Assembly (NCBI RefSeq): GCF_013626205.1
Contig: NZ_QHJE01000001.1
Span: 2,522,501-2,586,500, forward strand
DNA: 64,000 bases
Source: Hyphomicrobium methylovorum
GTDB lineage: Bacteria > Pseudomonadota > Alphaproteobacteria > Rhizobiales > Hyphomicrobiaceae
Direction of reading: 5' to 3'
In this document: positions 8,319 to 11,689 of the stretch, in pieces
How positions within the stretch are numbered: position 1 is the first letter of the stretch
Layout: every line of letters begins with the position of its first letter
The notes under the pieces: model-generated
Told to the model about the DNA's origin: nothing
What the model saw: the letters and a program-made list of their open reading frames with translations, nothing else
Databases searched by the model: none
Translations under genes and position numbers: made by a program

Positions 8319-8370
8319 TGGCAAGCCGCTATAACGTGATGATGTGGTCAGAGAGTGTGTATTGAGTATC

Positions 8371-8649
8371 ATGACCGAACAGCAAATGAGAGCGCGCGGG
8401 CGCTACGTGATCGGACCCGATGGGTCGCCGCTCACGGTCGCAGATCTTCCCCCGCGGGATACCAAACGATGGGTGATCCGTCGCAAGGCTGAGGTCGTGG
8501 CTGCGGTTCGCGGTGGCCTTCTCAGCATTGAGGAAGCGTGTGAGCGTTATACGCTGACCGTTGACGAATTCCTGTCGTGGCAGCGGTCAATCGACAAGCA
8601 TGGTCTTCCGGGCCTGCGTGCGACGCGGCTCCAGGATTATCGCGATTAA
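8371..8649 (+). CDS. sciP: CtrA inhibitor SciP (DUF1153)
   Basis: A small helix-turn-helix protein of 92 residues that, in Caulobacter, binds CtrA at promoters and blocks RNA polymerase recruitment, shaping late cell-cycle transcription. The segment from RYVIGPDGSPLTVADLPP through RRKAEVVAAVRGGLLS to LSWQRSIDKHGLPGLRATR is characteristic of the family. I use the ATG at 8371; a TTG at 8362 with GAGAG upstream and a GTG at 8344 are alternatives. It is about 2.3 kb from ctrA, with the FliJ-like gene between, and a CtrA-like box precedes it, consistent with the known CtrA-SciP feedback. Identification is strong; regulation is inferred from family. Confidence 0.92.
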   Translation: MTEQQMRARGRYVIGPDGSPLTVADLPPRDTKRWVIRRKAEVVAAVRGGLLSIEEACERYTLTVDEFLSWQRSIDKHGLPGLRATRLQDYRD

Positions 8650-10854: not shown

Positions 10855-10912
10855 CTAACGCCGCATTAGGGTTTGTTAACCTCTCGTCGCTAAATTCCTA
10901 ACGATCGCTTAG
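10855..10912 (+). promoter_or_regulatory. Paired palindromic CtrA boxes before ctrA
   Basis: Two copies of CTAA-N7-TTAG, at 10855-10869 and 10898-10912, lie 43 bases apart with GTTAAC between them at 10875-10880. Each keeps the half-site spacing of the CtrA consensus TTAA-N7-TTAA, with the outermost base of each half changed symmetrically. They sit 79-136 bases before the ctrA ATG. Autoregulation by CtrA is established in Caulobacter; occupancy here is inferred. Confidence 0.6.
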
Positions 10913-10990
10913 CTCGAGTGTGATGCGTTTCTTTGGGCGAACAGCAGACATGGCGCGGAGACGGGTTGGATTGGCACCAGAGGGACGGCT

Positions 10991-11689
10991 ATGAGGGTTC
11001 TACTCATTGAGGACGACAGCGCGACAGCGCAGAGCATCGAGCTGATGCTACAGTCCGAGGGCTTTAACGTTTACACCACCGATCTTGGTGAAGAGGGCGT
11101 CGACCTCGGTAAGCTTTACGATTACGACATCATCCTGCTTGATCTGAATTTGCCAGATATGAGCGGGTATGAAGTTCTGAAGACACTTCGGGTTTCGAAG
11201 GTCTCGACGCCGATCCTGATCCTTTCGGGTCTGGCAGGCATCGACGACAAGGTTCGTGGTCTCGGCTTCGGCGCCGACGACTACATGACGAAGCCTTTCC
11301 ATAAAGATGAGCTGGTAGCGCGCATCCAGGCGATTGTTCGCCGGTCCAAGGGTCATGCGCAGTCGGTCATCGAGACGGGCGATCTTCGCGTCAATCTCGA
11401 CACCAAGACGGTCGACGTTAACGGCCAGCGGGTGCATCTGACGGGCAAGGAATACCAGATGCTCGAGCTGCTCTCGCTTCGTAAGGGCACGACCCTGACG
11501 AAGGAGATGTTCCTCAACCATCTTTACGGTGGCATGGACGAGCCGGAACTCAAGATCATCGACGTGTTCATCTGTAAGCTTCGCAAGAAGCTGCAGGCTG
11601 CGACCGGCGGTAAGCACTACATTGAAACGGTCTGGGGCCGGGGATACGTCCTGCGCGATCCTGGCCATGAGGGATCTGAAGCCGCTTAA
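10991..11689 (+). CDS. ctrA: Cell-cycle response regulator CtrA
   Basis: Master OmpR-family regulator of alphaproteobacterial cell-cycle, flagellar and division genes, phosphorylated through CckA-ChpT. The protein is 232 residues. The receiver domain (1-120) has acidic residues 8-9, the phospho-acceptor Asp51 in [15 protein letters not shown], and YMTKPF. The winged-helix domain shows [17 protein letters not shown] and the terminal [15 protein letters not shown]. The chain ends in Ala-Ala, as does Caulobacter CtrA, where this end is needed for ClpXP degradation; the adaptor gene rcdA lies at 41.9 kb. Two palindromic CtrA-like boxes precede it and a hairpin terminator follows. Confidence 0.97.

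Follow-up and report, generated by a model that had tools for sequence, protein, structure and literature searches.

The region before ctrA in Hyphomicrobium is, as judged from its conservation, a promoter with CtrA-type sites, which CtrA is predicted to bind. Within the 64,000-nucleotide stretch of the Hyphomicrobium methylovorum genome analyzed here (the window), we lean toward the view that positions 10865–10912 constitute the main ctrA promoter together with an autoregulatory operator, with binding by CtrA, the position of the start, and the assignment of activation and repression to the sites all being predicted. The best reading of the locus is a variant of the known CtrA autoregulation, probably bipartite as in Caulobacter and arranged differently. 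A candidate 48-bp operator is thereby defined for this master regulator of the cell cycle in a genus of budding bacteria, in which our literature search found no ctrA promoter study; a text search with the exact motifs likewise gave no relevant paper.

We compared the DNA upstream of ctrA from 20 genus genomes, 49 loci in the other genera of the family, and 44 other Hyphomicrobiales. The last set is an unbalanced sample selected for similarity in CtrA, and 41 of its 44 members have a recognizable core. The source genome encodes CtrA, as identified by its match to NF045991, and the genome-wide motif counts refer to its 3.45 Mb.

Table 1. Features of the ctrA and sciP loci, in window coordinates
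Feature	Positions	Strand	Remarks
Promoter core ATTAGGGTTTGTTAACC	10865–10881	+	TTAG (10866–10869), N6, TTAA (10876–10879); putative activating CtrA box, −35 region
Alternative sigma-70 −35, TTGTTA	10873–10878	+	Inside the promoter core
Putative −10, TAAATT	10891–10896	+	15 bp past the TTAA half-site; TA---T conserved
Upstream palindrome CTAACGCCGCATTAG	10855–10869		N7 form in 3 genomes only; N6 in 11 others; the rest without
Downstream palindrome CTAACGATCGCTTAG	10898–10912		Putative repressing CtrA-type box over the predicted start; conserved in register
sciP CtrA box, TTAG-N7-TTAA	8304–8318	+	Aligned and conserved in the genus and other Hyphomicrobiales with the sciP locus
−10-like TATAAC, sciP promoter	8330–8335	+	15 bp past TTAA; TA at +15/+16 conserved in genus and order
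ctrA CDS	10991–11689	+	232 aa; NCBIfam NF045991, 427 bits
sciP CDS	8371–8649	+	92 aa; NCBIfam NF051866, 143 bits

The interpretation of the ctrA upstream region as a promoter is borne out by the conservation of three elements: the core, the −10-like element, and the downstream palindrome. The core carries few substitutions across all 20 genus genomes and is near-invariant in the family, and its TTAG is present in 20 of 20 genus genomes and 43 of 49 family genomes. The sequence TTTGTTAAC is near-invariant in the genus, the family, and most other Hyphomicrobiales. In the other Hyphomicrobiales (Rhizobium, Bradyrhizobium, Brucella, Methylobacterium, and others), the counterpart of the core is GAATCAGnnTTTGTTAACC, with TCAG as the first half-site, and the aligned core in most of them reads GAATCAGnnTTTGTTAACCAT, located about 100–140 bp before the ctrA start codon. 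The −10-like element is similarly constrained. Counted from the TTAA at 10876, the key positions of TA---T at +15 to +20 are 93–100% conserved in the genus and the family, while A at +16 and T at +20 are found in 100% of 40 distinct sequences from other Hyphomicrobiales. The −10-like element is separated from the CtrA-type box by a segment that includes GTCGC (10886–10890; GCGAC on the other strand), which is the Caulobacter SciP half-motif; it is largely retained within the genus, whereas the family does not conserve it.

Does the same arrangement occur at another promoter? The original prediction had also placed a TTAG-N7-TTAA box before sciP, and this box was located there, is conserved across the order, and is one of eight such words in the genome. 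The sciP promoter resembles the ctrA core in its TTAG first half-site, its TTAA second half-site, and its −10-like TA at +15, and the distance from TTAA to TA---T is 15 bp at both ctrA and sciP, across the genus and the order. In contrast, the sciP box has the N7 spacing instead of the N6 of the ctrA core, and no box lies over its predicted start. In Brevundimonas, sciP expression was lost when TTAG and TAAA, the half-sites of its sciP box, were mutated (PMC7987155), and therefore TTAG is a working CtrA half-site in that organism.

The downstream palindrome is present in 18 of the 20 genus genomes, and the remaining two carry one extra base. It is also present in 19 of the 49 other family genomes, and hence absent from more than half of them. 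Measured from the same TTAA, its offset is 22 bp in 31 genomes and 23 bp in six, and the expectation that sister genomes would conserve the site holds for this palindrome, which keeps a fixed register across the genus and the family. In the 48.3 kb of upstream DNA, the only other copies of CTAA-N7-TTAG are three, all of which are upstream palindromes. None of the 41 core-bearing other Hyphomicrobiales has the downstream palindrome.

Neither site matches the CtrA-box consensus TTAA-N7-TTAA: the ctrA core has N6 instead of N7, and the downstream CTAA-N7-TTAG deviates at either end. We call them CtrA-type sites rather than consensus boxes, and both deviations have precedents among sites that were footprinted or mutated (PMC3751295, PMC7987155); the footprinted CtrA sites of Caulobacter include N6 spacing and CTAA half-sites (PMC3751295). 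The genome-wide number of TTAA-N7-TTAA words, 25 as compared to 28 in the control, is uninformative as to the CtrA motif.

How might these sites control ctrA? We propose that TTAG-N6-TTAACC at the −35 region would be the binding site of phosphorylated CtrA, which would aid RNA polymerase at the putative −10, with transcription predicted to start near 10903. The second CtrA-type box, which is presumably weaker, would then cover the start from about −5 to +9, and a high level of CtrA would block initiation through this box, so that expression would be capped, while a moderate level would activate. The Caulobacter promoter P2 is activated by a full CtrA motif at −39; placed at −14, this motif represses P3, and a CtrA half-site at −14 represses P1 (PMC4287350). 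The proposed dual effect, in which moderate CtrA activates and high CtrA caps expression, is drawn from these −39 and −14 roles, together with the precedents for the site variants. Moreover, the CtrA of H. neptunium binds its own promoter (PMC7200025). Autoregulation is supported by the core, the −10-like element, and the downstream palindrome standing in a fixed register in the genus and the family, and by the 15-bp spacing from TTAA to the −10 element that ctrA and sciP have in common. Against it stand the N6 spacing of the core, the TCAG half-site of other Hyphomicrobiales, and the downstream box, which is off-consensus and missing in more than half of the family outside the genus.

The likeness to Caulobacter crescentus lies in CtrA motifs placed for activation and repression in the ctrA region (P1, P2, P3), and in N6-spaced sites and TTAA half-sites (PMC4287350, PMC3751295). 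The arrangement differs: Caulobacter has separate promoters, with a GANTC near −28 of P1, whereas Hyphomicrobium has both boxes in one block and no overlapping GANTC. Sinorhizobium meliloti calls for caution about the autoregulation reading, because several CtrA sites lie upstream of its ctrA and CtrA binds them at the P1 and P2 promoters, yet it regulates them weakly (PMC4433202).

An ordinary sigma-70 promoter could account for part of this conservation. It would have the −35 element listed in Table 1 and a −10 element near CCTAAC (10897–10902); CTAACGAT..TTAG would be promoter and start sequence, and the CtrA-like words would be incidental. This explanation fits the conservation of TTTGTTAAC throughout the order even where the first half-site is absent, and the Caulobacter RpoD promoters have TTG 34–37 bp before the start (PMC4287350), which would place the start near 10908 here. 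However, the best-conserved −10-like columns in the order are those at +15 to +20 from TTAA rather than those at CCTAAC, and a plain promoter leaves the joint conservation of CTAA and TTAG unexplained. We therefore regard it as unlikely.

Could the downstream palindrome instead be the operator of a regulator other than CtrA? At its position, a TTAA-type box was found in none of the 65 distinct sequences: the site stays CTAA/TTAG, unlike the usual CtrA consensus, and within the genus CTAACGATNNNTTAG recurs before ctrA only, as an operator of this kind might. On the other hand, the N7 spacing and the half-sites match CtrA variants (CTAA in the fliQ and ccrM sites, PMC3751295; TTAG in sciP, PMC7987155), and the center of the palindrome lacks dyad symmetry. 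A different regulator thus seems quite improbable, and a CtrA-type box remains our preferred assignment for the downstream palindrome.

The original prediction started from the two CTAA-N7-TTAG words before ctrA, which it took for a designed cooperative pair on the same helix face. The words are indeed there, with starts 43 bp apart, and they are rare: the pattern occurs four times in the 3.45-Mb genome, as compared to 30 times for the reversed pattern, and dinucleotide-shuffled 64-kb windows contain 0.13 on average, with at least two in one of 100 shuffles. They are palindromes only in their outer CTAA and TTAG, since the seven central bases have no palindromy. GTTAAC (10875–10880) does lie between them, but belongs to TTAG-N6-TTAACC, which is the conserved partner of the downstream palindrome, rather than being an element that the pair flanks. 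In relatives, only half of the pair is retained before ctrA: the downstream palindrome is kept and the upstream one is not. Among the 20 genus and 49 family genomes, the N7-spaced upstream palindrome is limited to the source genome and the two genomes closest to it. In eleven others of the genus, the left half is present but N6-spaced (CTAACGC-GATTAG type), the rest of the genus lacks the left half, and the upstream palindrome was not found in any of the 49 family genomes outside the genus. On this comparison, the upstream palindrome is evidently a product of chance, formed where a CTAA that is not conserved happens to precede the conserved core TTAG at the right distance, and the two palindromes are not a conserved unit, one apparently being family-wide and the other a recent accident. 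We rejected cooperative action of the two palindromes as very improbable, for although both occur 43 bp apart in three genomes, the upstream one is disrupted or missing in the other 17 of the 20 genus genomes and in all 49 of the family, even as the downstream one is kept.

The comparison with other Hyphomicrobiales also bears on methylation. Where the Hyphomicrobium family has AATTAG, they mostly have GAATCAG, which contains a GANTC site. Of the 41 other Hyphomicrobiales with a core, 28 have a GANTC that overlaps it, as compared to none of the 20 genus genomes, and the position of this GANTC reads TTAG in all 20 and in 43 of 49 family genomes. Thus, the usual methylation site appears, from these alignments, to be replaced here by a CtrA-like half-site, the two trading places at the same bases. 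The 300 bp preceding ctrA contain 168 GANTC sites across 43 other Hyphomicrobiales, where 47 would be expected, as well as 32 across the 49 family loci (53 expected) and seven across the 20 genus genomes (23 expected), with no enrichment in the genus. In a published count, 50% of Rhizobiales ctrA promoters have a GANTC within 300 bp (PMC8116508). Several genus members read GAATTAG, one base away from GAATCAG, and a separate sample of the order contained both GAATCAG and AATTAG cores, in hits that are not proven ctrA promoters.

Loss of CcrM or GcrA as the cause of the missing GANTC was rejected: GcrA (PF07750) is encoded in 22 of 22 genus genomes and a CcrM-type protein with a RAMA domain in 21 of 22. 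Of the hallmarks of a P1-type promoter controlled by GcrA and CcrM, the genus therefore has gcrA and ccrM, and lacks the core GANTC. Tentatively, and with some doubt, we suggest that the Hyphomicrobiaceae ctrA promoter may have switched from GANTC methylation timed by replication (CcrM/GcrA) to control by CtrA only: a C-to-T change from GAATCAG to AATTAG would drop the methylation site and make a CtrA-like half-site, and a second CtrA-type box would have been added over the start. Rewiring of GcrA and CcrM as such is already known in Alphaproteobacteria (PMC7987155). The case poses the question of how a core cell-cycle switch can give up a methylation input linked to replication in bacteria that keep GcrA and CcrM. 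The regions upstream of ccrM contained no box of the searched pattern. Two genus genomes (G016 and G020) encode extra divergent GcrA-family proteins beside the main one.

The ctrA leader (10925–10988) can pair with the region of the ribosome-binding site, GCGTTTCTTTGG with CCAGAGGGACG, and this pairing is strong in the source genome and the two nearest genomes. A leader hairpin masking the ribosome-binding site looks plausible by eye but is not borne out across the genus or the family, for which the mean duplex z-scores are −0.8 and −0.08, respectively. A search of the leader against Rfam returned no known RNA family up to an E-value of 5. Elsewhere in the same genome, three CtrA-like boxes lie within 82 bp of non-coding DNA (C1:1329288–1329369), namely two overlapping TTAA-N7-TTAA words and CTAACGATCCGTTAA, and this cluster is a possible CtrA target.
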